The notes under the pieces: model-generated
What the model was told of the DNA's origin: nothing
The model's database searches: none
The model's input: the letters and a program-made list of their open reading frames with translations, nothing else
Position numbers and translations under genes: made by a program
Shown here: positions 6,961 to 57,945 of the stretch, one piece after another
How positions within the stretch are numbered: position 1 is the first letter of the stretch
Layout: every line of letters starts with the position of its first letter
Assembly (NCBI GenBank): GCA_001724275.1
Contig: MEDZ01000005.1
Coordinates: forward strand, 56,176 to 120,175
Direction: 5' to 3'
Origin: Gemmatimonadetes bacterium SCN 70-22
GTDB lineage: Bacteria > Gemmatimonadota > Gemmatimonadetes > Gemmatimonadales > Gemmatimonadaceae
DNA: 64,000 bases

Positions 6961-7009
6961 AGGATAGCACGACGAGCTGAGCGCCCGCTGAAGCCGCGCT
7001 GAGCGACTG
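6961..7009 (-). promoter_or_regulatory. TCAG 11-bp direct-repeat operator plus -10 (gnd-zwf)
   Basis: On the + strand CTGA occurs at 6977, 6988 and 6999, exactly 11 bp apart; read toward gnd this is TCAG three times. The hexamer TATCCT (complement of 6961-6966) begins 14 bp after the T of the last TCAG. The placement matches all other copies of this module in the window. Confidence 0.8.
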
Positions 7010-7131
7010 GAATCGATTCGTCAGTGCGGGTCACGTCGACAGGTCGTCCCCGTGGCGCTCTTCCCTGTCGTGCGCTGGGGCGCGGTGGCGACGCGGCGAG
7101 GGCCACGGCCTCCTGGCGTGAGCCCTCGAAG

Positions 7132-7175
7132 CTTCAATTGCGATTCAGGCGCCGCTCAGCTTCCCACGATACCAT
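7132..7175 (+). promoter_or_regulatory. TCAG 11-bp direct-repeat operator plus -10 (YVTN gene)
   Basis: TCA cores at 7134, 7145 and 7156 (11-bp steps), then TACCAT at 7170-7175 at the standard 14-bp offset. Divergently paired with the gnd operator at 6961-7009. The leader to the ATG at 7254 is about 70 bases. Confidence 0.78.
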
Positions 7176-7253
7176 CCGCGCGGTGGGCGGGCCGTCTGGG
7201 CGGCGCCGCCCGCATTCACACACGGCCGGCACACATTCCTGGCGGAGGACCGA

Positions 7254-8339: not shown

Positions 8340-8359
8340 GACCGTGGGTAAGCGGTGCC

Positions 8360-9661
8360 TTATCCGGCCTCCTGTCTGCCGGGCCGCAGCGACCTGCTCA
8401 TCTCGAGACAGAGGCTCCCCACCGGGAGGAGATCGCGCCACTGCTGCACCAGCCGGCGGTACGCCTCGCCGACGGGGCGGATGTTGCGGCCGAGGTCGAA
8501 GAGGCCCAACGGGTTCACCCGGCCGTTGTCCTCGCGCAGCGCCGTGTCCCAGTCCACCTGGTCGGTGAGCGAGTACCAGGTGAACCCGACGATCGGCACC
8601 CCGTCCTCCTTCAGGCGCACCATGTTGGCCCACTGCTTCCACAGCCACCCGGGCGCCTGGTCGGCGTCGGCCAGGTTCGTCTCGGTGTGCATGACCGGCA
8701 GGCGGTAGCGGTCGAAGTACTGCCTGGTGATGACGTAGTAGCCGAAGACGTCGCCCGAAGGCACGGTCGTGCCGTCCCGGCGCACGAGGTGCTCGTTGGT
8801 CACGTAGTAGTCGTTGCCCATGATGCAGTACGGCTTGACCGCGAGCCCGCGCTCCAGGAACCAGTGGTACTCGTCGCGCGTGAGCCCGTGGTCGCCCAGG
8901 TACTCATACATGTGGGCGCTCACGTCGTGGCCGTAGCACAGGTCGAGCGACAGGAAGCGCTTCTGGTTGAAGTGGTCGGCCCGCGGCTGGGCGGCCGGCT
9001 CGGCGGCGTGGAAGTACTCGGTCGACTCGCTCTGGATGAACAGCGCCGCCGGCTGCACGCCGAGGATCGCCACTTCGGCCAGGATATTGGCGCGGACGAG
9101 GTGCTTGAGGGCGGTGACGAAGGCCCGGTCGGAGGCGAGCCGCTCGTTCCACCAGCCGTACTGCGCGGAGAAGGTCGCGGCGATGAAGATCTCGTTCACC
9201 GGTGTGTAGAGCCGCACCCACGGGAAGCGCGCGGCGAAGACCTGCGCGTAGTCGGCGAACATCGCGGGCCAGTCGGGGTTCTGGAAGCTGCCGACCCAAT
9301 CGGGCACGCCGAAGTGACAGAGGTCGACGATGGGCGTGATCTCCAACCGCCGCAGCTCGGCGAACGTCTCGTCGGTGAAGTCCCAGTCGTAGCGGTCGGG
9401 GCCCACGTGCGTGCGGTAATACGGCGGTCCGTAGCGCAGGTACGTCAGCCCCAGCTCGCGCACGCGCGCGAAGTCGTCGCGCCAGCGGTCGTAGTGGCCG
9501 GCCTTGGCCATCTCGTCCACGCGCTGCGTGGTACCATCCGGCAGCCGGATGGTGGGGTAGCTGTTCTCGATGCCCGTGGCGAACATGAAGCGGTCGCCGC
9601 TGACGCGGACCCGCTGCCGCGGGTAGTCATGCCCCACGCCGTCCCGGTCGGGGGCGGTCAC
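8360..9661 (-). CDS. glycoside hydrolase family 1-like protein (beta-glycosidase)
   Basis: 433 aa. TIM-barrel glycosidase of GH1 type: the acid/base glutamate sits in YTPVNEIF and the probable nucleophile glutamate in VMHTETN. These sites are looser than the classic TFNEP and ITENG, so substrate prediction is unsafe; cleavage of beta-linked glycosides is likely. No signal peptide is visible, so it is probably cytoplasmic. I place the start at GTG 9661, because GTGA overlaps the stop of the upstream SDR gene by four bases and the homologous part begins right after it; the reading frame stays open far upstream without coding sense. Last gene of the overlapping operon that begins at 15054. Confidence 0.8.
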   Translation of the reverse strand: MTAPDRDGVGHDYPRQRVRVSGDRFMFATGIENSYPTIRLPDGTTQRVDEMAKAGHYDRWRDDFARVRELGLTYLRYGPPYYRTHVGPDRYDWDFTDETFAELRRLEITPIVDLCHFGVPDWVGSFQNPDWPAMFADYAQVFAARFPWVRLYTPVNEIFIAATFSAQYGWWNERLASDRAFVTALKHLVRANILAEVAILGVQPAALFIQSESTEYFHAAEPAAQPRADHFNQKRFLSLDLCYGHDVSAHMYEYLGDHGLTRDEYHWFLERGLAVKPYCIMGNDYYVTNEHLVRRDGTTVPSGDVFGYYVITRQYFDRYRLPVMHTETNLADADQAPGWLWKQWANMVRLKEDGVPIVGFTWYSLTDQVDWDTALREDNGRVNPLGLFDLGRNIRPVGEAYRRLVQQWRDLLPVGSLCLEMSRSLRPGRQEAG

Positions 9662-10464
9662 ACCGGCCTCACGGCTGACGGCCTGACGGCCGGCCCCTCG
9701 GTGGGCTGGTGGCTGCCCAGGTGCGCGAGCCGGCCGCCGTCGACGTCGAGGACCGCGCACGAGACGAACGAGGCCTCGTCGCTCGCCAGGAACAGGATGG
9801 CCGCCGCAACCTCCTCGGGCCGGCCGAGCTCCGGGCCGGCCACCCGCTCCGCGCCCGACTCGACATTCGGGTTCTTCCACAACATCGCCGTGTCCACCGA
9901 GCCCACGCGGACGGCGTTGACGCGGATCCCCTCGCCGTCCCACTCGGCCGCCAGCCCGCGCGTGAACGCCTCGAGCCCGCCTTTGGAGGCGGCGTAGGAG
10001 GTGACCAGCGGGCCGGTGGCGCGGGCGTGCACCGAGGAGACGTTCACGATCGCGCTCCCCCGCCCCATGTGCGGGAGGCAGTACTTGGCGCAGAGGAAGG
10101 CGCCCTTGAGGTTCACGCCGAGCACCTGGTCCCACTCCGCCTCCTCGAGGTCCACGACCCGCCGGAAGACCATCGTGGCGGCGTTGTTCACCAGGATGTC
10201 CACCCGGCCCCAGCGCTCGACCGTCGCCCCCACCGACCGCCGCACGTCCTCCGCGCGCGAGACGTCCATCTGGACGAACAGCGCGTCGCCCGCCCCTTGG
10301 CGCGCGGCCGCCTCGCGCAGCGCCTGCTCCACCGCCCGCCCCTCCGCCTCCCGGCGGCCGGTGACGGTGACGCGCGCGCCCTCGGCCACGAACCGCTCGG
10401 CGGTCGCTCGGCCGATCCCCGACGTCGAGCCGGTGACGATCGCCACCCTGTCACGTAGTCGCAT
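9658..10464 (-). CDS. short-chain dehydrogenase/reductase (classical SDR)
   Basis: 268 aa from ATG 10464; GTG 10470 is an alternative two codons earlier. Cofactor motif TGSTSGIG near residue 10, the NNAAT structural motif, the catalytic serine in NVSSVHA, and YAASK with catalytic Tyr and Lys; a classical FabG-like SDR. An Arg in TGRRE after the second strand suggests NADP(H). Substrate unknown; a sugar or polyol is plausible given the adjacent glycosidase. The start overlaps a C-terminal remnant of a DUF6629 gene by a few bases, and the stop overlaps the GH1 start by four bases, so it sits inside the operon transcribed from 15.2 kb. Confidence 0.88.
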   Translation of the reverse strand: MRLRDRVAIVTGSTSGIGRATAERFVAEGARVTVTGRREAEGRAVEQALREAAARQGAGDALFVQMDVSRAEDVRRSVGATVERWGRVDILVNNAATMVFRRVVDLEEAEWDQVLGVNLKGAFLCAKYCLPHMGRGSAIVNVSSVHARATGPLVTSYAASKGGLEAFTRGLAAEWDGEGIRVNAVRVGSVDTAMLWKNPNVESGAERVAGPELGRPEEVAAAILFLASDEASFVSCAVLDVDGGRLAHLGSHQPTEGPAVRPSAVRPV

Positions 10465-10630: not shown

Positions 10631-11413
10631 CTACCGCCGAACGCGCCACTCGAGCTCCGGCATGCCGACCAGCTGCGACGAGAACTCCTTGTTGCTGGTC
10701 ACCGGCAGCTGGTAGGCGAGGCCGAACACGATCCCCTCACGCACGCGCACCTTCAGCCCGGCGAGGACGTTCACGACGGGGCGCACCCCCGTACCCCCCT
10801 CGCCGAGCACCTCCACGACGGGGAAGACCCGCTCCCGGAGGCCGACGACGAACGCCACGCTGGCGTCCACCATGTCCTCGCGCGGGTCGTAGTGCACCAC
10901 CTGGTTGAACGCCGCGCGCTCGTTCGCGAGCGCCGTCGTGAACCCCACCAGCGTGCCGACGCGGTCCCCACCCTCAGCGCGGGTGGGGATCTCGAACTCG
11001 ATGATCGGCGCGAACCCGCTCATGCCGTTCTCGCTCATGATCGCCGCGAACTGGAACATCATCTCCGTCTGCGGCACGTCCAGGTAGCGGTCGTTGCGCA
11101 CGTGCAGGCCGATGCGTTCGGAGAGCCCGGTCTCGAGGTGGAAGGCGAAGTCCCCATTCGTGCGCCCCTCCTCGCGCGTCGCCAGCCCGGCGGTCCGCAG
11201 ATTCCAGACGCCCCGGCCCTCGGGGATGCCCATATGCGTGAAGAACGGGTGTGGAAGCTCGCTCTCCTCCTCCGCTCCCGCCACGGGCATGCCCGGCCCC
11301 TGCGCCGCGGCCGGGTGGCCGGCGCCGAGCAGCAGCGCGGCCGAGCCGAGCGCGAGGAGGGTCGGCGTCACCGGCCGGCGGACGCGACGGGTGGTGGCGC
11401 GCGAAGGGTGCAT
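10631..11413 (-). CDS. outer-membrane beta-barrel protein, hypothetical
   Basis: 260 aa. Signal peptide (TLLALGSAALLLGAGHPAAAQ), then alternating strands of beta-barrel character ending in an aromatic/Arg terminus (LEWRVRR). I do not recognise a specific family; the layout resembles transporter-like outer-membrane proteins of 250-300 aa. ATG 11413 is chosen because GGAG lies six bases upstream and the codon overlaps the stop of the DoxX-like gene (ATGA); an ATG at 11419 sits directly on the ribosome site. Fifth gene of the overlapping operon; with the redox-like membrane proteins upstream it may serve envelope homeostasis, which is inference. Confidence 0.75.
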   Translation of the reverse strand: MHPSRATTRRVRRPVTPTLLALGSAALLLGAGHPAAAQGPGMPVAGAEEESELPHPFFTHMGIPEGRGVWNLRTAGLATREEGRTNGDFAFHLETGLSERIGLHVRNDRYLDVPQTEMMFQFAAIMSENGMSGFAPIIEFEIPTRAEGGDRVGTLVGFTTALANERAAFNQVVHYDPREDMVDASVAFVVGLRERVFPVVEVLGEGGTGVRPVVNVLAGLKVRVREGIVFGLAYQLPVTSNKEFSSQLVGMPELEWRVRR

Positions 11414-12018
11414 CACCATCTCCGTGGTGGTGTGTGGGCGTCGGCGCGCTCGCGGCGGAGGCGCCGGAGCTGGACGAGCATGATCGTCGCGATCACGATC
11501 TGGATCGCCGCGAGCACGCTGTCGAGGTCGATACCCTCGTCGAAGGCGTCACCCGGGATGAGCCACGGGTGGGCGGCACCGTTGGCGAGGTGCAAGTTGA
11601 TCGCCAGAGAGGTCCCGCCGATCGCCGCCAGCGCGATGATGACGAGGAATGCCGCGCGCGCCTGGTCGGAGATCCGGTCCCAGGCGAGGAGCCAGACGAG
11701 CGGGCCGCCGAGGAGCGCGATCCCCGCGAGGAGCTCGCTCCACTGGATCAGGTAGCCGAAGAGCTCCCCGTTCGGGATCACGGCGCGCTGCAGGAACCCC
11801 GCGTACCACTCGGCCGTGCCCGCCGACTTCTCCACCAGCTCCTCGGCGAGCCCGGCCGCGAAATCGCCGCGCACGACCTTCCCGAGGCCGGAGATGAACC
11901 ACTCGTAGCCGACGACCATCGTCACGAGCAGGAGGCCGACCATGCCCGCGCCGGGGCGGCCGCGCAGGTCGTCCGGCCGATGGTCGCCTGGCGCCGTGGA
12001 CCGCCCGGCCGGGGTCAC
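11413..12018 (-). CDS. DoxX-like membrane protein (second copy)
   Basis: 201 aa, GTG start overlapping the stop of the SPW/VKOR gene (GTGA). Four predicted membrane helices, with the DoxX-like features VVGYEWFISGLGKV near the start, the amphipathic FAAGLAEELVEKS, and a long final helix in the C-terminal third. DoxX-type proteins are small inner-membrane components associated with quinone or thiosulfate oxidation and redox stress; function here is unproven. It mirrors the DoxX-like gene at 13457-13918, so two DoxX-like subunits flank a central SPW/VKOR protein within one operon. Confidence 0.75.
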   Translation of the reverse strand: MTPAGRSTAPGDHRPDDLRGRPGAGMVGLLLVTMVVGYEWFISGLGKVVRGDFAAGLAEELVEKSAGTAEWYAGFLQRAVIPNGELFGYLIQWSELLAGIALLGGPLVWLLAWDRISDQARAAFLVIIALAAIGGTSLAINLHLANGAAHPWLIPGDAFDEGIDLDSVLAAIQIVIATIMLVQLRRLRRERADAHTPPRRW

Positions 12019-13460
12019 CGGATGAAGCGCTCCCAGCTTCCGTAGCGCTCGCCTACCGGGCCGCGCGGGAGGCTGAGCAGGATCACGAGCGCCCCCGCCA
12101 CCGCGGCGCTCCACCGCGCCGCGGGCGTCGCACCGGCCAGCAGCCACGGGGCGGCGATCACCCAGGCGCCGAAGAGCACGTTGATGAAACGCGCCACGCG
12201 GCCGACGTCGGCCAGCGCGATCGCGGCGACCGTCACGATCAGCGCGCCCACGAGGTGGTCGCTGTGCGCGGCCGCGCCCGTGCTCCCCAGCGTGGCCGGC
12301 GCGAACATCAGCCACACGCCGAGCGCGGCGGTGGCGAGCAGGTTCCAGGGCAGCGCCACCCCCCACACCATCGCCTTCGCGCTCACCACGTCGGGGCGCG
12401 TGGGGCCGATGTCCGGCAGGCCGCGCAGCGTGCCGCCGAGCCAGAAGACACGCCAGAGCGACTGCCCCTCGCGCCGCGCCTGGACGAGGAACTGCCCCAT
12501 CGCCACCACCTCGTCGAGCGTGAGCGCGACCATGATCAGCATCGCGACGGCAGCGGTGAGACAGGGCGTGCACCAGGCGCCGACGGCGACCGGCTGCAGG
12601 ATCATGAGCGTGACGCTCACCACGCCGAGCGGGACGACCAGGATGCCGAAGAACGTCACCATCCACGGCATCGTGCGCCAGCGGCGCTTGTCGCCCATGA
12701 AGCCCATGAGGAACTCGATCATGTACGCCATGGCACCGAGCCCCGCATCGGGGATGGGGAAGGCGCGCGACACGTCGGACGTCAGCACGCGCTCGGTGCC
12801 GTTGCCGAAGAACGGGTCGGTGAGCGTCGCGACGTGCTCGAGCTGGAACGCGGTCATCTGCCGCGACAGGAAGAAGCCCAGCAGCGCGAGCGCGATGATG
12901 GGCGCCCGCTGCGGCCAGCTCGACGGGTTGTACGTCCAGCCGGGCGGCACGTCCGGGCCCGGCTCCATGGTCATGCCCACGGGCATGGGCATGCCCGGCG
13001 CCAGCACGGCGAAGACGATAACCAGCGTGCCCACGAGCGTGTCGTTGGCGTAGCCGGCCGCGGTGGGCGCCCAGAAGACGAGGGGCGCGAAGAGCAGCCA
13101 GACACCGACCAGCGAGTTCGCCCACGGCGCCCACAGGTGCCAGAACGGGCGACGCGAGAGCGAGAGCGCCGCGAGCACGAGGACCAGCACCCCGCTGACC
13201 ACGTCGCTCGCTTGGAGCCGCGGGTCGCGCAGCCCGAGCGCGAAGGCGCTGGTGATGAGCCAGAACCCGAGCGCCATGTTCGCGAAGTGCGGCCAGACGA
13301 TTCCCTGTCCGTGCTCCATCACGCCACCGTGCTCACCCCCGACGGCGCCGGTCTCTCGAGCGTCGGCGGACGGCGCTGGATGGCCCACATGCCTTGCCTG
13401 GCCGGCTTGGGCGGCTTGGGCGGCGTCGCCGCCAGGGATGTGTGGATCGGTCCGGCTCAT
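12015..13460 (-). CDS. SPW-repeat / vitamin K epoxide reductase-like membrane protein
   Basis: 481 aa, polytopic. After a 50-residue polar N-terminus come SPW-type helices (WPHFANMALGFWLIT and WAPWANSLVGVWLLFAP). A central VKOR-like region contains the Cys pair WCTPC near residue 297. A second SPW-like region closes the protein (LPWNLLATAALGVWLMFAPA). VKOR-like proteins reoxidise disulfide-forming partners using quinone; the CXXC motif is present, but I did not see a clear second loop Cys pair, so activity is uncertain. The open frame runs upstream to 13733, but the start at ATG 13460 overlaps the DoxX-like stop (ATGA) and fits the operon pattern. Confidence 0.82.
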   Translation of the reverse strand: MSRTDPHIPGGDAAQAAQAGQARHVGHPAPSADARETGAVGGEHGGVMEHGQGIVWPHFANMALGFWLITSAFALGLRDPRLQASDVVSGVLVLVLAALSLSRRPFWHLWAPWANSLVGVWLLFAPLVFWAPTAAGYANDTLVGTLVIVFAVLAPGMPMPVGMTMEPGPDVPPGWTYNPSSWPQRAPIIALALLGFFLSRQMTAFQLEHVATLTDPFFGNGTERVLTSDVSRAFPIPDAGLGAMAYMIEFLMGFMGDKRRWRTMPWMVTFFGILVVPLGVVSVTLMILQPVAVGAWCTPCLTAAVAMLIMVALTLDEVVAMGQFLVQARREGQSLWRVFWLGGTLRGLPDIGPTRPDVVSAKAMVWGVALPWNLLATAALGVWLMFAPATLGSTGAAAHSDHLVGALIVTVAAIALADVGRVARFINVLFGAWVIAAPWLLAGATPAARWSAAVAGALVILLSLPRGPVGERYGSWERFIR

Positions 13461-13918
13461 GTCTGTCTCGCGTGGTCGACTACCGGCGCCGGACGCCGAT
13501 CGGAATCCCGTCTGAGCCGGGGAATGATCCAGCGGTCCAGCCCCCACCAGCCCGCTGGCCGCCACGCGACGATGAGCACCAGCTCGAGCGCCAGCAGGAT
13601 CGGGTTCGCCGAGACCGTCCCTGCGAGCAGGAAGTTTGCATTCATGACGCCGCCAAAGAAGGCGGCCACCCCGGTCAGCACGCCGAGTACGAGCGCGGCC
13701 CCGACGAGCAGCTCGCCCAACGAGACAAGCCACCCGAAGACCTCGGCCTTCGGCAGCACGACCTCACGGCTGAAGAGCAGCACGCCGACCAGCAGCGCGG
13801 CGAAGGCCAGCCCGTGGTCCGACTCCCTCCTGCCGCTGTAGTAGAGAAGGAAGCCCCCCCCGGCGGCGGCGACGAGCGCGACCGCCTGCCTCCCGCGCAG
13901 AGAGCCGTCGGCGTTCAT
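13457..13918 (-). CDS. DoxX-like membrane protein (first copy)
   Basis: 153 aa with four predicted membrane helices; contains FGWLVSLGELLVGAALVLGV and GVMNANFLLAGTVSANP, the typical core of small DoxX-family proteins. The start ATG 13918 overlaps the epimerase stop (ATGA), and its own stop overlaps the SPW/VKOR start. The reading frame extends upstream to 14158, but that part is Arg/Gly-rich shadow of the epimerase gene. Role in the operon probably concerns quinone-linked redox chemistry in the membrane with the SPW/VKOR protein; inferred from family and position only. Confidence 0.78.
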   Translation of the reverse strand: MNADGSLRGRQAVALVAAAGGGFLLYYSGRRESDHGLAFAALLVGVLLFSREVVLPKAEVFGWLVSLGELLVGAALVLGVLTGVAAFFGGVMNANFLLAGTVSANPILLALELVLIVAWRPAGWWGLDRWIIPRLRRDSDRRPAPVVDHARQT

Positions 13919-15054
13919 CCTTCTCCGTCCTCTCTCGCTTCCTCGGCGACCTCGTGCCGTTGGGCCGCGGCCTCGCGCTCGAGCCGCTTCGGCGGCTCGA
14001 GGTCGTTCTCCCGATACCAGCCGAGCGGATCCGCGAGGAGCGCCGCGATCATCTTCGGCAGCGTCTCGCGCAGCGAGCGCTTGGGCTCCCAGCCGAGCAG
14101 CGTGCGGGCGCGCGTGATGTCGAGCGCGTAATGGTCGTTCGCCCGGTCGATCATCCACGGCTTGATGAACGCCTCCTGCCCGGGGATCTGGTCCAGCACC
14201 CAGGCACCCGCCTTCGTCACCGCCGACAGCTGCGACGGGATCTCGATCGTCTCCTTGCTCGAGCCGCGGAGCAGCCGCGCGATGGTGTGCTGCAGCTCGT
14301 CGTAGGTGAGCGCCTCCGGCTCGCCGAGGAGGATCGCGATCTCGGGAGGCAGCGCGGCGCGGCGTTCCACGACCCGCTCGATCGCATCCACCAGATCGTC
14401 CATGTGCATGAACGACTGGCCGTGCGCGGTGGATCCGGAGTAGAGCCGGCTGGTGAGGTCGCGCTCGTAGATGCGCTGGATCTGGTTCGCGAGGGGGATC
14501 GAGTGGGCCAGGTCATCATAGACGCCCGAGATGCGCAGCAGCACGGCCGGGACGTCGCCGCGCTCCTCCAGGATGAGCTGCTCGGTGCGTACCTTCGATT
14601 CCGGGTACGCCCACGTCGGTTCCAGCGGCCACTCCTCGGTGATGAACTCGCCGGGCTCCCCCGGCGGGTGCACGAGCATCGTGCTCGAGAAGACGAACTG
14701 CTCCACGTGGAAGCCGAGCGCGCGCAGCCCCCGCAGCAGCCGCCCCGTGCCGCGCACGGTGACCTCATCGTACATCGCGCTCGGCCGGCCGAAGAAGTCG
14801 TAGTAGGCGGCCAGGTGGATCACCGCGGCGACGTGCGTGCCGTGGTGGTCGCGGATCGTGCGCAGCCCCTCGTGCACCCCCTCGTCGGACGTGATCTCGA
14901 CGGGGATGTACACGCACCCCGGCGGCGGCGGGTTGGGCGCCTTGCGGTCGAAGCCGACGACGTCGGTGAAGCGTCCGGCGAAGCGCCGCATCACGGCGTC
15001 GCCGATACGGCCGTTCGAGCCCGTGACGATGATGATCCGGTTGTCTGCTGTCAT
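13915..15054 (-). CDS. NAD-dependent epimerase/dehydratase (extended SDR)
   Basis: 379 aa. Cofactor motif TGSNGRIGDAV near residue 12, the catalytic serines in FSSTMLVHP, and YPESK with the catalytic Tyr and Lys; substrate domain in the C-terminal third. Members act on nucleotide sugars or isoprenoid/sterol-like substrates; I cannot name the substrate. First gene of the eight-part leftward operon. ATG 15054 is preceded by GAGAGGACAGCC. The promoter carries the largest operator array of the window (six 11-bp repeats, 15215-15296), with a leader of about 150 bases. Confidence 0.88.
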   Translation of the reverse strand: MTADNRIIIVTGSNGRIGDAVMRRFAGRFTDVVGFDRKAPNPPPPGCVYIPVEITSDEGVHEGLRTIRDHHGTHVAAVIHLAAYYDFFGRPSAMYDEVTVRGTGRLLRGLRALGFHVEQFVFSSTMLVHPPGEPGEFITEEWPLEPTWAYPESKVRTEQLILEERGDVPAVLLRISGVYDDLAHSIPLANQIQRIYERDLTSRLYSGSTAHGQSFMHMDDLVDAIERVVERRAALPPEIAILLGEPEALTYDELQHTIARLLRGSSKETIEIPSQLSAVTKAGAWVLDQIPGQEAFIKPWMIDRANDHYALDITRARTLLGWEPKRSLRETLPKMIAALLADPLGWYRENDLEPPKRLEREAAAQRHEVAEEAREDGEG

Positions 15055-15214
15055 GGCTGTCCTCTCGGTGTGCCGCTGTTGCTGAAGCAGTTGCGCGGTC
15101 GGAACCGCGTTCGCCCCCCGACAGAGGCTCGCGCGCCGCGAACGCTGTGGGCCGGGTTACCGCCGACGCATGCACCGCACCGCGGCCGGCGCCGCGTTTC
15201 GCGCGATGCCAGCC

Positions 15215-15296
15215 ATCGTGCCACGCCTCCGTGAACGCCGGCTGAACGCCGGCTGAACGCCGGCTGAACGCCGGCTGAACGCCGGCTGAAGGTCGG
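15215..15296 (-). promoter_or_regulatory. six-copy TCAG 11-bp operator array plus -10
   Basis: Units of 11 bp begin at 15231 (GTGAACGCCGG), followed by four perfect copies of CTGAACGCCGG from 15242 and a last CTGAAGGTCGG ending 15296. Read toward the epimerase, the last core is TTCAC and the hexamer CACGAT (complement of 15215-15220) sits at the standard 14-bp offset. Other sites have three repeats, so this one looks like a tandem expansion. Confidence 0.82.
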
Positions 15297-15339
15297 GTGG
15301 CGCTCGACCGCAGCCGACGTCTACGCCCGCGGCGAGTCG

Positions 15340-16594: not shown

Positions 16595-16643
16595 GATGTA
16601 CGCGCGCCCGCTGAACGGCGCATGAGCGCTGACTGAGGAACGC
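16595..16643 (-). promoter_or_regulatory. TCAG 11-bp direct-repeat operator plus -10 (USP)
   Basis: On the + strand CTGA at 16611, ATGA at 16622 and CTGA at 16633, exactly 11 bp apart. Toward the USP gene, TACATC (complement of 16595-16600) lies at the 14-bp offset; this is the only copy lacking the final T in the hexamer. Confidence 0.75.
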
Positions 16644-16737: not shown

Positions 16738-16780
16738 TTCACGTGCCCTTCAGGTCACCCTCAGGTAGCCACCGCATCGT
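16738..16780 (+). promoter_or_regulatory. TCAG 11-bp direct-repeat operator plus -10 (HMA/cfa)
   Basis: TCA cores at 16739, 16750 and 16761, followed by CATCGT at 16775-16780 at the standard offset. Divergently paired with the USP operator at 16595-16643. It now drives a USP remnant followed by the HMA-like and cfa genes. Confidence 0.75.
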
Positions 16781-23066: not shown

Positions 23067-23115
23067 ATGATGCCGGCGCAAGCTGAGAGGCACCTGAGGC
23101 CGGACTGAGGGCACA
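23067..23115 (-). promoter_or_regulatory. TCAG 11-bp direct-repeat operator plus -10 (M50 protease)
   Basis: CTGA on the + strand at 23083, 23094 and 23105 in 11-bp steps; toward the protease gene the hexamer CATCAT (complement of 23067-23072) sits at the standard offset. Confidence 0.78.
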
Positions 23116-23174: not shown

Positions 23175-23217
23175 CTCATGCGGCATTCACCGCGTCCTCA
23201 TCCAGCCAGCGCATCGT
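23175..23217 (+). promoter_or_regulatory. TCA 11-bp direct-repeat operator plus -10 (ppsA remnant)
   Basis: Cores CTCAT, TTCAC and CTCAT with T at 23176, 23187 and 23198, then CATCGT at 23212-23217 at the standard 14-bp offset. The G of TCAG is not kept in any of the three. Divergently paired with the site at 23067-23115. The gene behind it is broken. Confidence 0.62.
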
Positions 23218-24646: not shown

Positions 24647-24689
24647 CTCAGCCGGGCCACAGGTGACGTTCAGCTTCCGGCACGATGCT
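24647..24689 (+). promoter_or_regulatory. TCAG 11-bp direct-repeat operator plus -10 (USP remnant/DUF2933-like)
   Basis: Cores CTCAG, CACAG and TTCAG at 24647, 24658 and 24669 (11-bp steps), then GATGCT at 24684-24689 at the standard offset. Drives the truncated USP at 24819 and probably the two small membrane proteins behind it. Confidence 0.7.
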
Positions 24690-27269: not shown

Positions 27270-27318
27270 ATGGTGGTCACGCCGCCTGAACGGTCGCTGA
27301 GGACCGCGTGAATGCTGG
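27270..27318 (-). promoter_or_regulatory. TCAG 11-bp direct-repeat operator plus -10 (glgA)
   Basis: CTGA, CTGA and GTGA on the + strand at 27286, 27297 and 27308; toward glgA the hexamer CACCAT (complement of 27270-27275) is at the standard offset. Confidence 0.76.
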
Positions 27319-27376: not shown

Positions 27377-27419
27377 CTCACCCGCGCCTCAGGCGCACCT
27401 CAGGTGGCGGACGTATGCT
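27377..27419 (+). promoter_or_regulatory. TCAG 11-bp direct-repeat operator plus -10 (PLD unit)
   Basis: TCA cores at 27378, 27389 and 27400, then TATGCT at 27414-27419 at the standard offset. Divergently paired with the glgA site. The leader to ATG 27463 is under 40 bases. Confidence 0.8.
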
Positions 27420-31465: not shown

Positions 31466-31510
31466 AGGGTAACGCGCGATGCTGATGCTGGGCTGAGGGC
31501 TCGCTGAGCA
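31466..31510 (-). promoter_or_regulatory. TCAG 11-bp direct-repeat operator plus -10 (pgm)
   Basis: CTGA on the + strand at 31482, 31493 and 31504; toward the mutase gene TACCCT (complement of 31466-31471) is at the standard offset. Confidence 0.8.
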
Positions 31511-31545: not shown

Positions 31546-31588
31546 CTCATGGGCGCCTCAGAGCGTCTTCAGCTAACGCAGCTACTCT
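31546..31588 (+). promoter_or_regulatory. TCAG 11-bp direct-repeat operator plus -10 (second USP)
   Basis: TCA cores at 31547, 31558 and 31569, then TACTCT at 31583-31588 at the standard offset. Divergently paired with the phosphoglucomutase site. The leader to ATG 31643 is about 50 bases. Confidence 0.8.
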
Positions 31589-37860: not shown

Positions 37861-37909
37861 ACATTGCGACGTGAAGCTGAACGACGCCTGAGCAGTGGAT
37901 GAATGAGGG
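37861..37909 (-). promoter_or_regulatory. TCAG 11-bp direct-repeat operator plus -10 (glgP-xfp)
   Basis: CTGA, CTGA and ATGA on the + strand at 37877, 37888 and 37899; toward glgP the hexamer CAATGT (complement of 37861-37866) is at the standard offset. Confidence 0.76.
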
Positions 37910-41118: not shown

Positions 41119-41167
41119 AAGATCGCGCCGCGGCCTGAATGGGGGCTGAAGAGCGCATGAGCAATCC
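41119..41167 (-). promoter_or_regulatory. TCAG 11-bp direct-repeat operator plus -10 (YHS gene)
   Basis: CTGA, CTGA and ATGA on the + strand at 41135, 41146 and 41157; toward the YHS gene GATCTT (complement of 41119-41124) is at the standard offset. Confidence 0.72.
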
Positions 41168-41220
41168 ACGGTGGATATGCTCGTCCCATGCAGCGCTGGT
41201 GACCGACTCCGCATGGTCGT

Positions 41221-41263
41221 TCATGCGCCCTTCAGCGGGCGCTCAGCGTGACGTGGTACTCTC
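41221..41263 (+). promoter_or_regulatory. TCAG 11-bp direct-repeat operator plus -10 (LacD/GH57)
   Basis: TCA cores at 41222, 41233 and 41244, then TACTCT at 41258-41263 at the standard offset. Divergently paired with the YHS-gene site. The leader to ATG 41339 is about 70 bases. Confidence 0.8.
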
Positions 41264-47309: not shown

Positions 47310-47316
47310 GCGCCTC

Positions 47317-47796
47317 TCAACCGGTCGCTGGCGCTACAATCGAGGCCGTGTAGCCGAGCGTCTTGATCGCGGCGATCATCTGCTCGACGGTCACCTTCGC
47401 CGGATCGTAGGTCACGACCGCTGTCCCCTTCTCGTAGCTCACGTCCGCCTTGGCAACTCCGGGGAGGCGCGTGAGAACCTTTTGCGTTCCGAGCACGCAC
47501 CCAGCGCACGTCATCCCCTTCACTGCGAGCGTCACCGTCCGAGACGCGGACGCTGGTTGCGTCACCGCCGGTTGTGCCGGCGACCGTTGCGTCACCGCCC
47601 GTGCGGCTGCCTCCACCGGCGGTCGAGCGTCGGCATGCGGTCGTACAGGTGGAGATGCCTGCACGGGGGCGGCCTCTGCGATCGGGGCGAGACCATCAAT
47701 GGCGCCGATGGACCGTGACTCCGGCCCGCAGAGATTGGAGAGGGAGAGGGCGCCTACGGCGGCGGCGAGACCGAAGGTGGCGAGCGGTTGGATCAT
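47317..47796 (-). CDS. merP: MerP-like periplasmic heavy-metal-binding protein
   Basis: 159 aa. N-terminal signal region, a linker rich in Ala/Pro, then an HMA domain with GMTCAGCVLGTQKVLTRLPG near residue 93 that binds Hg(II) through the Cys pair. MerP normally passes Hg(II) to MerT. Longer than typical MerP (about 90 aa) because of the linker. Located behind merT in the mer operon. Confidence 0.78.
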   Translation of the reverse strand: MIQPLATFGLAAAVGALSLSNLCGPESRSIGAIDGLAPIAEAAPVQASPPVRPHADARPPVEAAARAVTQRSPAQPAVTQPASASRTVTLAVKGMTCAGCVLGTQKVLTRLPGVAKADVSYEKGTAVVTYDPAKVTVEQMIAAIKTLGYTASIVAPATG

Positions 47797-47875
47797 CGGT
47801 ACACCCGGTGTAGGGGACGTGAGGGCTTGGTGAGAACGTCGGCGCGCCGCCTCGGGGCGACGCCGCTCGGTGGAG

Positions 47876-48325
47876 TCAGACGAGAAGCATGGACCACTGG
47901 GGGAATGTCAGGAACACGAGCGCGACGAACGCGGCGATCCACAACAGGATCTCGTCGCGGGTCCGGTGGCGGGGAGCGGTGCATGTCGCGTCCTGCGTGC
48001 ATGCACCGCTCGGGGCGGTAGCGGCTTGCGCCGGCTTCCTCCCATAGACGACGTAGAAGCCGACTGCAAGGAGAATCAGGGTCAGGACGGTCAACGGGAG
48101 GCGGAGCGGCTCGAACGTGCTCGCGAGTCCCGCGCCGACGCCGAGCGTCACGAATAGGAGCGGCCCCATGCAGCAGAGCGAGGCGAGAAACGCGGCGCCG
48201 ATGGCGCCCGCGGCCGCCGCGAGGCCGCGCCGCGCACCGGAGCTGGGACTGGGGTTGTGCGCCGCCGTAGACAGGGGGATCGGGTCGGTCGTGGCAGGCG
48301 TTCGGTAGGCTACTCGGTCGGTCAT
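47876..48325 (-). CDS. merT: MerT-like mercuric ion transporter
   Basis: 149 aa with three membrane helices. The first contains the vicinal Cys pair in FLASLCCMGPLLFVTLGVG near residue 50, as in MerT; a second Cys group CTQDATC lies in the loop. Takes up Hg(II) for reduction by MerA. Stands between merA and merP; about 75 bases separate it from each. Confidence 0.85.
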   Translation of the reverse strand: MTDRVAYRTPATTDPIPLSTAAHNPSPSSGARRGLAAAAGAIGAAFLASLCCMGPLLFVTLGVGAGLASTFEPLRLPLTVLTLILLAVGFYVVYGRKPAQAATAPSGACTQDATCTAPRHRTRDEILLWIAAFVALVFLTFPQWSMLLV

Positions 48326-48401
48326 GTCGGGACGTAATCGTGGTCGTGGTCGTGGTCACGCGCTGCAGCTACGCCAAGCAGGACGTTCCCGGGCGCGCGG
48401 T

Positions 48402-50249
48402 TCATGCGCAGCAGCTCAGCTTCTGGACGCCGGCGGATCCGCCCTGCGCGACAAGCTTCAAGCTCTCCACCCACGTGAGATACGGATGGAGCGTGCCCGA
48501 GAGATCCTTCGCGGTCAACCCGAACCGGATGGCGAGTGTCACCTCGCCCATGAACTCCCCGGCGTTTGGCGCCACTGCGTGCACGCCGAGGATGCGCCCT
48601 GAACCGGACTCGGTGACGAGCTTGACGAGCCCGCGCCGGTTGAAGCTCACGAGCGCGCGCGGAACGTCGGCCATGTCCAGCGTGGCGACCTCGATGTGGT
48701 ACCCGGCCGTCCGCGCGGCGGCCTCGGTCAGGCCCACCGAGGCCACCTGCGGGTCGGTGAACGTCACGCTCGGTACCACCCTCAGGTCGAACTCGCGCTG
48801 ATCGTCGCTCGTCGTCCCGGTCGCGTGGAGCGCCTTTAGCGCGTTCTCCGCAGCCACGCGCCCACCCGCGGCGGCCACGTACACGTAGCCTGGCCCTCCG
48901 GTCACGTCGCCAGCGGCGTACACGTCCGGGTTCGTGGTCCGCATCGTGGCGTCCACCTCGACGTAGCCGCCCGGCGTGAGCGCCACGCCGACCTCCTCGA
49001 GGCCGAGGTCCTGCGTGTTCGGCCGTCGTCCCGTGGCAACGAGCACCCGCTCGGCGCGGAGCTGCCCGTCGAGGCCCCCCCGCCGCACGTCGACGAGCAC
49101 CCCGCCTTCGTCGCGCTCCGCGCGCACCGCGGTGGTGCCGGTATGGACCTCGATCCCCTCGGCCTCGAGCGCCTGGCGGAGCAATTCGGCGATCTCCGGG
49201 TCCTCTCCGGGGAGCAGATGCGCGCCGCGCTGGACGATCGCGATCTTCACTCCAAAGCGTGCGAGCGCCTGCCCCAGCTCCACGCCCACCGGGCCGCCCC
49301 CGACCACGAGCATGGAGGCGGGGAGTGCCTCGAGACTCATCGCGGTCGTACTCGTTAGCGCGTCGACGGTCTCGACACCCGGGATCGCCGGCAGGGTGGC
49401 GGCCGACCCTGTGGCGACGATCACCTTGCGGGCGAGGTACTCGCGTGTGGATGGGCCGTCGCCGACCCTCACACGGATCGCGCCGCTGGAGGTATCGTTC
49501 ACGGCGCTCGCCAGGAGGCGCGCGCGGCCCTCGAAGCGCACCACACCGGGGTAACTCGCGAGCACGTCGGCGTATTTGGCTTCGCGCAGCTCGCCCACGA
49601 GCGCGTCTTTCTGACGCACGACTTCGCCCCAGTCGACGGCGGGCTCGCAGGGCGCCACACCGGGGAAGCCGCGCCGAGCGGCGTGGGCGTGCGCGGCAGC
49701 CTCGACCAGCATCTTCGACGGGATGCAGCCAACGTTCACACACGTGCCACCGAGCGTGCCGCACTCAGCGATGGCGACCTTCGCGCCCATCCCGGCCGCC
49801 TGAATCGCCGCAGCGACGCCCGCGCCGCCAGTTCCAATAATGAGGAGGTCGAAGTCGGCGCCCGGCGCGGCGCCTGTCCTGTCGGGCGCGCCGGCGGTTG
49901 CGTGTACCGAGAGCCGGCGTGCGGGAGCCTCGCGAGCGAACGACGGCGTGTCGGAGCGCCCTGAACCGGGCGCCGCAGACGCCTCGATGCCGGCCATCCC
50001 GACCGATTCGGCGCTGACCTCGTCGGGGATGAGCGGCTGGGCGCGATAGCCCGCCCGTGCGACCGCAGCGGCGAGCGCGCCGGCCAGCGCCGGCGTCGGC
50101 GTCACGCCCGGGGCCAGTTCCACGCGGCTGCGGCCCGCCCGGTAGTCGACGTGCGCCGCCTCGACCCCCGCTACACGCTCAAGCGCGGCCGTGACGTGCC
50201 GGGCGCAGTCGAGGCAGGTCATCCCGCTGATGGTCAGATCGAGGCGCAT
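48402..50249 (-). CDS. merA: mercuric reductase
   Basis: 615 aa. N-terminal HMA domain (ISGMTCLDCARHV), linker, then the FAD/NAD(P)H disulfide reductase core: FAD site IIGTGGAGVAAAIQAAGMGA, redox-active GGTCVNVGCIPSK near residue 172, NADPH site VVGGGPVGVELG, FAD site VYAAGDVTGGPGYVYVA, and the C-terminal Hg-binding Cys pair KLSCCA. Reduces Hg(II) to volatile Hg(0) in the cytoplasm. ATG 50249 begins the HMA domain; the frame upstream is not coding. Confidence 0.97.
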   Translation of the reverse strand: MRLDLTISGMTCLDCARHVTAALERVAGVEAAHVDYRAGRSRVELAPGVTPTPALAGALAAAVARAGYRAQPLIPDEVSAESVGMAGIEASAAPGSGRSDTPSFAREAPARRLSVHATAGAPDRTGAAPGADFDLLIIGTGGAGVAAAIQAAGMGAKVAIAECGTLGGTCVNVGCIPSKMLVEAAAHAHAARRGFPGVAPCEPAVDWGEVVRQKDALVGELREAKYADVLASYPGVVRFEGRARLLASAVNDTSSGAIRVRVGDGPSTREYLARKVIVATGSAATLPAIPGVETVDALTSTTAMSLEALPASMLVVGGGPVGVELGQALARFGVKIAIVQRGAHLLPGEDPEIAELLRQALEAEGIEVHTGTTAVRAERDEGGVLVDVRRGGLDGQLRAERVLVATGRRPNTQDLGLEEVGVALTPGGYVEVDATMRTTNPDVYAAGDVTGGPGYVYVAAAGGRVAAENALKALHATGTTSDDQREFDLRVVPSVTFTDPQVASVGLTEAAARTAGYHIEVATLDMADVPRALVSFNRRGLVKLVTESGSGRILGVHAVAPNAGEFMGEVTLAIRFGLTAKDLSGTLHPYLTWVESLKLVAQGGSAGVQKLSCCA

Positions 50250-50324
50250 GCGCTGCTCGGCTGTGTGGTTAGGAGCGCGACTCCGCTCCAAGGAACTCAG
50301 CTCCACGGTCTCGGCTCCAAGGCC

Positions 50325-50882
50325 TCAGCGGGTGATACTTCCCGACGCGCACGGCGTTGGCGCCGCGGCGGCGTCGGGCGCGTTCAGTGCGGCGATGATT
50401 GGACAGTCGAACGGGTCAACCGCCGCGTCCACATTCGTGCCGCAGGTCTCGTCACACTCGGCCACCAGTACGAAGAGCGACTGGCGGAGTGCCCCGAGCA
50501 TCCGGAGCTTCTCGTCGACTTCGCGCAGCTTCGTCGCGGCCACGTCGCGTACCGCGAGCCCGGCCCCCCGGCGGGCCGGTGTCCCCCGCAGCCGGAGCAG
50601 TTCCTCGACCTCGGCGAGACTGAAGCCGAGCACCTGCGCGTGCTTGATGAAGCGCACCACGCCGATGGCCTCCGGCGGGTACTCGCGATAGCCGCTCGCT
50701 CGCCGGCCGGTTGGCTGCAGGAGTCCGCGTCGCTCGTAGTAGCGGAGCGCGTCGGGGGTGACGCCGGCGGCGGCGGCCAGGTCACCGATGCGGAGCACTG
50801 CAGCCGTTGGGCGCGCGGGAGCAGATGCGGGAAGTCCGAGGCTGAAACGGCGGCGGGTGGTTGCCGAGAAGGAGCTGGACAT
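50325..50882 (-). CDS. merR: MerR-family transcriptional regulator
   Basis: 185 aa. Helix-turn-helix RIGDLAAAAGVTPDALRYYERRGLL near residue 34, the dimer helix, and a metal-binding end ECDETCGTNVDAAVDPFDCPIIAAL with three Cys, consistent with Hg(II) sensing. The first gene of the mer operon and probably autoregulated from the promoter at 50889-50920. ATG 50882; an upstream open frame to 50945 is not needed. Confidence 0.9.
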   Translation of the reverse strand: MSSSFSATTRRRFSLGLPASAPARPTAAVLRIGDLAAAAGVTPDALRYYERRGLLQPTGRRASGYREYPPEAIGVVRFIKHAQVLGFSLAEVEELLRLRGTPARRGAGLAVRDVAATKLREVDEKLRMLGALRQSLFVLVAECDETCGTNVDAAVDPFDCPIIAALNAPDAAAAPTPCASGSITR

Positions 50883-50888
50883 GATCGA

Positions 50889-50920
50889 AGGATAAACCCT
50901 GGAGTACACTCCAGAGTCAA
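50889..50920 (-). promoter_or_regulatory. MerR-type operator and promoter
   Basis: Reading leftward: -35 TTGACT (50920-50915), the dyad CTGGAGT-GT-ACTCCAG, then the -10 TATCCT (50894-50889). The 19-20 bp spacer is the MerR hallmark. The promoter overlaps the merR start region and drives merR-merA-merT-merP. Confidence 0.85.
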
Positions 50921-50987
50921 GTTCCGGCATGACGCACAGCGGCACTCACGCGGACCATGATCTTTGGTGATCACCCCCCGGAGCGGA

Positions 50988-54946: not shown

Positions 54947-54952
54947 GGCCGT

Positions 54953-56428
54953 CTACTCCCGATGCTGCGAGTGATCGATGCCCGGCGTCTTGGGCATGGG
55001 CACCGCCTTGGGCGCCGCCGGGGGTCGCGGGCCGGGCGCGACCGGCGTGCTCGCGCGGTCGTCACCGCCCGTGGCACCCGATGCCCCCATGTCCATCCCC
55101 GGCATGTTCCCCATCCCACCGAGCGCCGAGCCGAGGTTCGACTCGGCGTCTACAAGGAAGGTGGCCGAGGCGACGACGGTGTCGCCCGCCACGAGCCCCT
55201 GCAGGATCTGCATCCGATCGGTCGTCGCCAAGCCGAGGACGACGTCGCGCGGCGCAAGCGTGCCATCGGCGCCCTTCACGAAGACCATGGTGCGCGTCCC
55301 CGTGGCGAGCACCGCCGAGCGGGGCACGTTGAGCGCCGACGCCGGGCCCGTGCCACGCACGCGAATGGTCGCGTACATCCCAGGCTTGAGCACGAGACGG
55401 GGATTCGTCAGCTCGACGCGCACCCGCGCCGTTCGCGTTTCCGCGTTCAGCGTCGGGTAGATGTAGGTGATCCGACCCATCCGCTGCTCGCCGGGCAATG
55501 CCTCGAACTCCGCGGTCACCTCCTGACCCAGCCGGACACTGGCCAGGTCGCGTTCGAAGACCTCGCCCTCGAGCCAGACCGTGCTCAGGTCGGCGACCCG
55601 ATACAGTGCGTCACCGGCCATGATGCGCTGGCCGGCCAGCACGTTCTTCTCGACCACGACCCCGCCCGCCGATGCCCGCAGGACGAGCGCCTTCCGCACC
55701 TCGCCCGTCCGCTCGATGCGCTCGATCTCGCTCGCCGGGATGTCCCAGAAGGCGAGGCGCCGCCGCGCGGACTCGCGCAGCTCTTCGGCACCGCGCTGTG
55801 CCTCCGGCGTACCGGCAGCCACGTCGGACGTCAACTGCCGCGCGAGGAGAAGCTCCTGCTGCGCCGACACGAGCATCGGCGAGTAAATCGACAGGAGCGC
55901 CTGCCCTTGTTGCACCGGCTGGCCCGTGTAGTTGACGTAGAGCTCTTCGACCCAACCGTCGATCTTCGGCGCGATGGCCTTCACGCGCGTCTCGTCGTAC
56001 GTCACCAGCGCGACGGTCCGAATCTCGGTCGCGAGCGGGCCGAGGACCACGGGCGCGTACGTCACGCCGATCCGCCGCGCGTTCTCCTCCGTCAGCAGCA
56101 CGGGCATCGCGCTGTCCGCGGCGGGGGCGGCCCCGTGGTTGTGTCCGGCCGCGGCCGCCGCTTCGTCGCCGCTGCGCGTGAGCAGGTAAACAGCCGCGAT
56201 CGCCGCCAATATCACCACGGCGAGAATCGCGGCGCCGAGCGCGCGGCGACGGCGGCTCGGTCGGCCGGATCCGAACGGCGACTCTTCGTTCGAATCCGGA
56301 GTCGGACCGATGGGCGAGGCTCGTTGCGTGCCCGCATCAGTATGGGGGTGAGTGGCATCCCGCCGGGGGTCGTCGTGCGGCACGCTCGTCGCCCTCTCGT
56401 TCAGATAATCGTTCGGTACGTTGCTCAT
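54953..56428 (-). CDS. cusB: efflux RND periplasmic adaptor (CusB type)
   Basis: 491 aa. A long cytoplasmic N-terminus (60 residues), one membrane helix (ALGAAILAVVILAAIAAVYL), a His motif HNHG, then the barrel-sandwich and alpha-hairpin parts (YVNYTGQPVQQGQALLSIYS). The C-terminal 70 residues are Met/His/Pro-rich (MGNMPGMDMGASG, HSQHRE), a likely copper-binding tail. Overlaps the stop of the TolC-like gene by four bases. Confidence 0.93.
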   Translation of the reverse strand: MSNVPNDYLNERATSVPHDDPRRDATHPHTDAGTQRASPIGPTPDSNEESPFGSGRPSRRRRALGAAILAVVILAAIAAVYLLTRSGDEAAAAAGHNHGAAPAADSAMPVLLTEENARRIGVTYAPVVLGPLATEIRTVALVTYDETRVKAIAPKIDGWVEELYVNYTGQPVQQGQALLSIYSPMLVSAQQELLLARQLTSDVAAGTPEAQRGAEELRESARRRLAFWDIPASEIERIERTGEVRKALVLRASAGGVVVEKNVLAGQRIMAGDALYRVADLSTVWLEGEVFERDLASVRLGQEVTAEFEALPGEQRMGRITYIYPTLNAETRTARVRVELTNPRLVLKPGMYATIRVRGTGPASALNVPRSAVLATGTRTMVFVKGADGTLAPRDVVLGLATTDRMQILQGLVAGDTVVASATFLVDAESNLGSALGGMGNMPGMDMGASGATGGDDRASTPVAPGPRPPAAPKAVPMPKTPGIDHSQHRE

Positions 56429-57828
56429 CTTCTGCTCCCGGCCGCGGGAGCGGCCACCACGTTCGGGTCGAACAGCTCGCGACCAATCAGCATCTCCAGG
56501 TCGGCCACCGCCTTGCCCTGCTCCGCCACGAGCACGAAGAGCTCCTGCTGGTAGCGGTTGAGGGTCATCTGATTGTCGAGCAGCGTCATGAAGTTCACGT
56601 CGCCCACCCGGTACGCGGCGAGCGAGGACGTGATGGTCGCCTGGGCCTGCGGCAGGATGGTGCTGCGATAGAGGTCACTCAGGTTGCGCGCGCGGCGCCA
56701 ATCCGCGTACGCGCCAGCGACGCGCCCGGCAGTTTCAGCGCGCATGGCCGTGAGGTCCGCCGCCGCCATGGTTCGCATGGCCGTCGCCTCCTCGCGCATC
56801 TGGAGCTGGCGGCTCCGGGCGAAGATCGGGAGACTGGCCCCGAGCATCAGGCTACCCATCTGCTCGTTCCCCATGCCCACTGGGCCCGCCCGCCAGCCGT
56901 ACTGTACGCCGACCTCGAGGTCGGGCCACAGCTCCCGGCGAGCGAGCGTCGCGGCCGCTTCCGCCCCCCGCAGCTCCTCACGCCCCGCTTGAATCATTGG
57001 GCGGTTCGCCTGGGCCAGCCAGATCAGCGAGTCGAGCGGCGGCAGTTCGGTCGGCAGCGCCGGGAGCACGGGCGAGGCCGGATCGGCCTGCGGGGCGCGG
57101 TTGAGCAACCCCGCGAGCCGTGCGTCCATGCTGGTGCGCATCGTCTCCATGCGGACGATGTCCTCTGTCATGCGGGCGATCTCGACCTGCGCGCGGAGCA
57201 CGTCCGGCTGCCGTCCCTCACCCACCGCATACATGGTCTGCGCGGTCGTGGCGATGTCCTGCAGGAGCCGCCGCGTCGCGATTGCCACGTCGAGCGACTG
57301 GTCGGTCTGGTACAGGTCATAGAAGGCCATCGCTGCCTGGGCGCGGACGTCCCACCGGACGTCGGCGGCGCGGCTGCGGGCCGCCGCCGCCTGCGCCTCA
57401 GCCACGTCACCGGCCAGACCGAGCTTGCCCGCCACAGGGATCATCTGGATGAGCTGTAGCTGCGTCATGCCGAGCGGGTCCATCGACTTCAGCGACGGCA
57501 ACTCGCGGTTCATGAAGCCGAGCTGGAGCAGTGGATCGGGCGGACGCTTGGCGCCGGGCACGCGCGCCTCGGCGGCACGGGCCAATGCCCGAGCGGCCTC
57601 GAGCCGCGGACTCGCGGTGGCGAGCTGCCGGTAGAGCGCGCCGAGCACCAGAGAGGGCGCTTGACGAGCGGGTGTGTCGCGGTCGCCGGCTGCGGAAGCT
57701 GACGACGTCTGCGCAACGGCGCGACCGGGCATTCCGATACCGGCGAGCACGGCCGTGGTGGCCAAGCCAGCTGTGCGGACGAGTGCGCCTACGCGCCGAT
57801 CTCGCCAGCAGAAAGAACTGAGTTTCAC
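56425..57828 (-). CDS. cusC: TolC-like outer-membrane efflux protein (CusC role)
   Basis: 467 aa. Signal peptide (TAGLATTAVLAGIGMPGRAVA), then the two-repeat alpha-helical barrel of outer-membrane factors: LARAAEARVPGAKRPPDPLL in repeat 1 and AEAAATLARRELWPDLEVGV in repeat 2. First gene of the cusCBA-DUF411 operon. Operator at 57897-57945. Confidence 0.92.
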   Translation of the reverse strand: MKLSSFCWRDRRVGALVRTAGLATTAVLAGIGMPGRAVAQTSSASAAGDRDTPARQAPSLVLGALYRQLATASPRLEAARALARAAEARVPGAKRPPDPLLQLGFMNRELPSLKSMDPLGMTQLQLIQMIPVAGKLGLAGDVAEAQAAAARSRAADVRWDVRAQAAMAFYDLYQTDQSLDVAIATRRLLQDIATTAQTMYAVGEGRQPDVLRAQVEIARMTEDIVRMETMRTSMDARLAGLLNRAPQADPASPVLPALPTELPPLDSLIWLAQANRPMIQAGREELRGAEAAATLARRELWPDLEVGVQYGWRAGPVGMGNEQMGSLMLGASLPIFARSRQLQMREEATAMRTMAAADLTAMRAETAGRVAGAYADWRRARNLSDLYRSTILPQAQATITSSLAAYRVGDVNFMTLLDNQMTLNRYQQELFVLVAEQGKAVADLEMLIGRELFDPNVVAAPAAGSRR

Positions 57829-57896
57829 GGGAATCGTCTCGGGTTGGCGCCGGCGCGTGCTGGTCCGACGATCGAGCCTACAGTTGGTCGATCGGA

Positions 57897-57945
57897 ACAG
57901 TCGCCAGGCTACCTGAGCCTGCGCTGAGCGGGACCTGAGCGTACA
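57897..57945 (-). promoter_or_regulatory. TCAG 11-bp direct-repeat operator plus -10 (cus operon)
   Basis: CTGA on the + strand at 57913, 57924 and 57935; toward cusC the hexamer GACTGT (complement of 57897-57902) is at the standard offset. This ties copper efflux to the same regulon as the carbon genes. Confidence 0.74.

Follow-up and report, generated by a model that had tools for sequence, protein, structure and literature searches.

The window analysed here, a stretch of 64,000 nucleotides from Gemmatimonadetes bacterium SCN 70-22, forms the right-hand end of contig C5, which is 120,175 bases long and belongs to a 4.70 Mb genome. It carries sixteen copies of one candidate promoter module, in which direct repeats with a TCA core, spaced 11 bp, are followed at a fixed distance by a hexamer of the -10 type. 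We propose that a PhoP-type response regulator, encoded on the same contig in what appears to be a genomic island, activates the module promoters from a box standing in for the -35 element. Judging from the sequences compared below this is probable. What the sequences show is the geometry of the module, its confinement to one stretch of the genome, its coupling to the regulator across genomes, and the genes behind it. The signal that would induce the system, for which copper is suggested, is the least certain step.

Geometry of the module

Counted from the T of the last TCA as position 0, the three cores begin at -22, -11 and 0, and the hexamer occupies +14 to +19. A strict module was defined as three TCA at 11-bp steps plus the A and the T of the hexamer. 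Sites were also scored, with a maximum of 14. The sixteen sites reported in the initial annotation were borne out by direct reading and by scoring: three intact cores are present at 15 of them, the middle repeat being ACA at site 24647, and six repeats are found at site 15215. The base counts given there for the hexamer were also confirmed. At each of the 16 sites it begins 14 bp beyond the last core, its second base is always A, its last base is T in 15 cases (the only departure being TACATC at site 16595), and its first base is T, C or G in 7, 6 and 3 cases respectively. Conservation is limited to the core and hexamer letters, those between the repeats being variable, and gives a consensus of YTCAG(S) for the repeat and (T/C/G)A(Y)nnT for the hexamer. 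Head-to-tail repeats with an 11-bp period are thus present, as in PhoP/PhoB-type promoters, and the fixed distance from the last repeat to the -10 element is kept both in the window and in relatives.

The two comparisons proposed in the initial annotation, with shuffled sequence and with coding regions, set the modules clearly apart. The window contains 14 matches to the strict module; 100 dinucleotide shuffles gave none. At a score of at least 13 out of 14, 18 matches were obtained (the 16 sites, plus two weak ones at 47811 and 3595 that may be chance matches), compared to 0.05 per shuffle over 20 shuffles. None of the 21 matches in the window with a score of at least 12 fell inside a called gene, according to our own gene calling. 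Distances between TCAG motifs pointed the same way, with 20 pairs at 11 bp, 10 pairs at 22 bp and at most 3 pairs at any other distance between 5 and 44. As had been claimed, each of the 16 modules reads towards a gene called on its own strand, 5 to 582 bp away, and 12 of them form six back-to-back divergent pairs. For sites 23175, 27377, 31466 and 41221 the modules were taken from the scan list, automatic placement having favoured the stronger neighbour.

Confinement to one stretch of the genome

The genome scan suggested in the initial annotation did not reveal a genome-wide spread. Sixteen strict matches were found in the whole genome, of which 15 lie within C5:44019-114113, and the backward pattern gave none. 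When one mismatch was tolerated, C5 held 20 of 25 matches (control, 0), and all 13 matches to TCAG-TCAG plus hexamer were on this contig. Since 15 of the 16 strict matches occupy a single 70-kb stretch, the regulon is confined to that stretch, and the idea of a genome-wide regulon was rejected, only one strict match and 5 of the 25 one-mismatch matches lying off C5. The set of modules reaches to the left of the window, with a module at C5:44018-44060 before a GAPDH-CopA operon. On the right, C5 ends where the window ends. Insertion sequences are present on the contig, and its left 8 kb gave merely patchy matches in five relatives.

The sole strict match off C5 (C19:71479-71520) is located 68 bp upstream of the gene for a paralogous OmpR-type regulator, which is 43% identical to the C5 response regulator. 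Cross-regulation between the island and this paralog is possible.

The response regulator and its kinase

The response regulator gene (C5:41807-42481) is found 14 kb to the left of the window, beside a histidine kinase gene (C5:42516-43949). Next after the kinase comes the module at C5:44018-44060, ahead of genes for type II GAPDH and a copper-type ATPase. The regulator is of the OmpR/PhoB class, with matches to PF00072 (105.9 bits) and PF00486 (86 bits) that are both above cut-off, while the more specific PhoB model TIGR02154 gave 201.7 bits, below its cut-off of 296.2. The closest solved structures are those of Mycobacterium tuberculosis PhoP (E 1.9e-58) and PrrA. M. tuberculosis PhoP reads TCACAGC by means of Asn212, Val213, Glu215, Ser216, Tyr217 and Tyr220 (PMC4832192). 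In the alignment, these six residues correspond to N189, V190, E192, V193, Y194 and Q197, so that Asn212, Val213, Glu215 and Tyr217 are kept, and Ser216 and Tyr220 are changed. The recognition helix is near-identical in 13 orthologs, N189, E192, V193, Y194 and Q197 being invariant. Viral contigs also contain relatives of the regulator (15 loci, 37 to 45% identity).

Coupling of regulator and module across relatives

The compared genomes are designated by G-numbers, G000 being the genome studied here, and the family set comprises 179 genomes. An ortholog of the regulator (71 to 83% identity) was found in 12 of these, our own included, belonging to 9 of 35 genera, and neither of the two other genomes of the genus has it. 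Such a sporadic presence among relatives is what is expected of a genomic island. Other matches to the regulator reached at most 48% identity in the 24 genomes compared. The module was present in 11 of the 12 genomes with the ortholog, compared to 15 of the 167 without it. When our own genome is excluded, the ratio is 10 of 11 versus 15 of 167 (Fisher p 5e-9). In total, 55 sites were found in ortholog genomes and 21 in the others; 49 of the 55 share a contig with the ortholog, and each of the 11 genomes holding both has at least one such module. The twelfth ortholog genome, G352, has a module scoring 13 out of 14 before genes for an outer membrane protein, CusB and CusA. In a sample of 395 genomes from the phylum, the pattern (12 genomes) and the ortholog (10 genomes) were both confined to this family.

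To analyse the distance to the hexamer, triple YTCA repeats were located, without using the hexamer, in 15 stretches of DNA taken from 12 other genomes. Of 50 such repeats, 44 have A at +15, 43 have T at +19 and 42 have both, over a background of about 0.17 per base. After removal of one match from each of the stretches that had been chosen for a full-pattern match, these numbers became 33, 32 and 31 out of 39. In the stretches chosen by ortholog alone (G016, G352 and the first contig of G416), both bases were present in 4 of 5 cases.

More distant homologs of the regulator were examined at 80 loci from named genomes, 79 of which had 200 bases upstream. A double repeat with the same hexamer offset was found upstream of the homolog at 11 of the 79, 42 to 58 bp before the homologous stretch, and never in reversed controls. 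By title, these 11 loci belong to Actinomycetota, including Corynebacterium xerosis, Dietzia, Mycolicibacterium and Nonomuraea. The 80 loci together gave 34 double modules, compared to 3 in reversed sequence. Because the module is found at the homologs' own regulator gene, this clade of regulators seems to have had the box for a long time, and its position there probably reflects self-regulation. What is special here would then be the large regulon, rather than the box. Around the distant homologs, a metal neighbourhood was searched for and found mostly absent, with query matches at 3 of 23 loci.

One further observation was made at locus L003, where a module with a score of 13 (9660-9726, minus strand) is followed by 15 kb in which no gene is called, and adjoins transposase remnants. 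It is perhaps a promoter severed by an insertion. Nearby, at 11241-13924, the transposase gene of an IS3-type element is split by a second element on the opposite strand.

Genes behind the modules

Genes in the window were assigned with Pfam and NCBIfam, and operon limits were set from gene spacing only. Several targets belong to carbon metabolism. The module at 6961..7003 (minus strand, hexamer TATCCT) precedes 6PGD-G6PD, and its neighbour at 7133..7175 (plus, TACCAT) a gene for a YncE-like beta-propeller protein. The module at 27270..27312 (minus, CACCAT) lies before the glycogen synthase gene glgA (NCBIfam), and that at 27377..27419 (plus, TATGCT) before a cardiolipin-synthase-like gene. 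Phosphoglucomutase is found behind 31466..31508 (minus, TACCCT), and a universal stress protein gene behind 31546..31588 (plus, TACTCT). Alpha-glucan phosphorylase and phosphoketolase genes follow 37861..37903 (minus, CAATGT). A YHS-domain gene lies behind 41119..41161 (minus, GATCTT), and a DeoC/LacD-type aldolase with a GH57 glycosidase behind 41220..41262 (plus, TACTCT). The module with six repeats, at 15215..15290 (minus, CACGAT), precedes a run of seven genes, from an epimerase to a GH1 protein, including a VKOR-SPW protein and an SDR.

Among the other targets, 57897..57939 (minus, GACTGT) stands before efflux genes for an outer membrane protein, CusB and CusA (NCBIfam). A second universal stress protein gene lies behind 16595..16637 (minus, TACATC), its called start being merely 5 bp off, and HMA-domain and cyclopropane synthase-like genes are behind 16738..16780 (plus, CATCGT). 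An M50 peptidase gene follows 23067..23109 (minus, CATCAT). The module at 23175..23217 (plus, CATCGT) is followed by the remnant of a PEP-utilising enzyme gene and then by an EamA transporter. This remnant (23418-23561) encodes 48 residues with 42% identity to its counterpart in G412, an uninterrupted gene of 798 residues that likewise lies behind a module. Finally, 24647..24689 (plus, GATGCT), the site with the ACA middle repeat, precedes a small GHGG-tailed membrane protein and DUF5676. The open reading frame for this small protein (24952-25188, 78 residues) combines a single hydrophobic segment with a tail of GHGGHGG repeats, and a near copy is found behind a module of G046.

Of the two weak candidates, both scoring 13 out of 14, one (47792..47834, minus, third repeat ACA) lies before the HMA-domain gene 47317-47796, and the other (3576..3618, minus), which has GCA as its third repeat and is separated by 532 bp from the IS110 transposase gene that it precedes, may be due to chance. 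The HMA-domain gene is part of a group of mercury-type genes at 47317-50945 (HMA/MerP-like, MerT, MerA, MerR). A BlaI-type repressor and M56 peptidase pair (59168-60724) adjoins a copper-type ATPase gene, and similar pairs occur in G180, G046 and G094.

In relatives, modules precede DUF5676-GAPDH-CopA and M50-GlgA in G412, and in G046 they precede 6PGD-G6PD, pyruvate:ferredoxin oxidoreductase, the GHGG protein and a run ending with acetate kinase-phosphoketolase. CopA-like and Cus genes are found behind them in G129, G352 and G416, and Rieske-cytochrome b genes in G180 and G374. Metal genes thus lie behind modules in several genomes.

Proposed mechanism and inducing signal

In the mechanism that we propose, the kinase would sense a signal and the regulator would become phosphorylated. 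The phosphorylated regulator would bind the 11-bp repeats head to tail, three protomers on three repeats and more on six, with RNA polymerase adjoining it and making its -10 contact with the (T/C/G)A(Y)nnT hexamer, while the box would occupy the place of the -35 element. The outcome would be the efflux of copper or of a metal like it, together with additional enzymes of the pentose phosphate pathway, glycogen metabolism, glycolysis and the phosphoketolase route, as well as stress proteins and membrane-lipid proteins. The initial annotation had assigned the modules to a single OmpR/PhoB-type regulator acting from a box in the -35 position. The class of the regulator and the notion of one regulator are supported, since its gene is on the same contig, its ortholog predicts the module, and 11 of 79 distant loci carry the double repeat; the expected spread of the regulon over the genome is not. 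An OmpR-type regulator gene carrying the same site was found as the C19 paralog, 68 bp downstream of a module, but not as the C5 regulator itself.

By analogy, copper is suggested as the inducing signal because of the gene content and of the CTTCA repeat of Corynebacterium glutamicum CopR (PMC3140484). Copper is reported to inhibit GAPDH and the function of the pentose phosphate pathway in Staphylococcus aureus (PMC10249872), which would make sense of the carbon genes in the regulon. More tentatively, the island may be a self-contained regulon that spreads horizontally, bringing along a sensor and a promoter code of its own as well as additional copies of enzymes of central carbon metabolism, and in which copper triggers both efflux and a metabolic bypass. 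Copper would poison the resident enzymes of glycolysis and the pentose phosphate pathway, and the copies carried by the island (G6PD, 6PGD, archaeal-type GAPDH, aldolases, phosphoketolase and glycogen enzymes) would provide the bypass. Second copies do exist elsewhere in the genome for G6PD and GAPDH, the two enzymes checked besides aldolase. For class II aldolase, considered with a swap to a metal-insensitive aldolase in mind, a weak match of 54.6 bits was found elsewhere.

Several observations weigh against these proposals. Concerning the coupling, the 15 non-ortholog genomes with the module hold 21 matches, simple tandem repeats among them, and 7 genomes of the family contain 11 matches to the pattern read backwards as a control. 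G094 has two modules and no ortholog was found in its fragmented assembly, in which the contig begins just ahead of these modules. Concerning the promoters, 8 of the 50 triple repeats of relatives lack one or both hexamer bases, 11 of the stretches used for that count were selected by the pattern itself, and for several sites the nearest 1 kb holds no called gene. No module is found directly upstream of the regulator gene in its own genome. As for copper, the regulator scored 219 bits with the heavy-metal family TIGR01387 (CztR/SilR/CopR; cut-off 279.2) and the kinase 212.4 bits with the heavy-metal sensor family TIGR01386 (cut-off 292.55), so that a copper-family label was dropped for both. 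The inspected part of the kinase alignment showed no clear metal-binding motif, and one of the 3 distant loci with adjoining metal or carbon query matches, out of 23, is the Gemmatimonadota locus itself.

The main rival to copper is a redox, oxygen or energy signal acting through the same regulator and boxes, the metal genes being passengers. This is a real but far from certain possibility. It would account for the modules that, in relatives, stand before genes for pyruvate:ferredoxin oxidoreductase, for acetate kinase with phosphoketolase, for a PEP-utilising enzyme and for Rieske-cytochrome b, and it agrees with the scores of regulator and kinase below the metal-family cut-offs and with distant homologs that mostly lack adjoining metal genes. 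It fits less well with the CusA-, CopA- or multicopper-oxidase-like genes that most relatives compared have either behind a module or next to the regulator, or with the GHGG-repeat membrane protein found behind a module in both G000 and G046.

Binding of the repeats by a different island-encoded regulator, with the response regulator only travelling along, is improbable. Genes of the BlaI, M56, MerR and ArsR types are indeed present on the contig, but homologs of the BlaI/M56 pair were seen in just some of the relatives compared (G180, G046 and G094), whereas the response regulator is present in all 12 genomes of the ortholog set and its distant homologs bear the same module at their own gene. 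The geometry of 11-bp direct repeats is, moreover, that of PhoP-type regulators (PMC4832192). Lastly, a mobile or tandem DNA repeat devoid of regulatory role, which the six identical repeats at 15215 and the plain tandem repeats fitting the pattern (in G315, for instance) might evoke, is hardly credible given that conservation spares the intervening letters, that 71 of the 72 sites scoring at least 13 on C5 and the stretches of relatives lie between genes (the remaining one touching a called gene), and that the hexamer offset is kept across genera.

Comparison with known systems

The PhoP-type activation that we favour is best compared with M. tuberculosis PhoP, whose box is TCACAGC-N4-TCACAGC and whose tandem binding extends to trimers and tetramers (PMC4832192). 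The modules share with it the 11-bp period, the TCA that opens each repeat and four of the six base-contacting helix residues. They differ by a repeat of the form YTCAG(S), without the CAGC part, by the usual presence of three repeats and by the -10 hexamer at a fixed offset. The genes behind them differ as well, and so, presumably, does the signal.

The pho box of Escherichia coli PhoB stands in place of the -35 element. Its CTGTCAT repeats have the same 11-bp period as the modules (PMC4832192). The core differs, being TCA(G) here and not TGTCA, and the regulator is below the cut-off of the PhoB model. The MprA box of mycobacteria and corynebacteria is an 8-bp direct repeat with a 3-bp spacer. 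The homologs of Mycolicibacterium, Dietzia and C. xerosis that have the module may belong to the MprA group. The loose TKTTAAGAAM motif given for C. glutamicum MprA (PMC12113857) is unlike the module.

C. glutamicum CopRS is a copper-responsive two-component system whose CopR box is TGAAGATTT-nn-TGAAGATTT (PMC3140484). The opposite strand of this box reads CTTCA every 11 bp, as the modules have TCA every 11 bp. For CopR, one genomic site serving two divergent copper operons is reported (PMC3140484), whereas about 20 sites are found here, before genes of carbon metabolism too. No published account of such a regulon was found in the open-access literature searched. As far as our limited searches show, the type of box is known, and what is new is a strict code used throughout an island, at about 20 promoters, which joins metal efflux to a second set of carbon enzymes. 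The strictness of this code makes target genes predictable from sequence alone in Gemmatimonadota, a poorly studied phylum. If true, a regulon that adds copper-sensitive types of enzymes would directly counter poisoning by the metal, and with about 20 promoters it would exceed the known copper two-component systems, which, like CopRS, govern few operons (PMC3140484).

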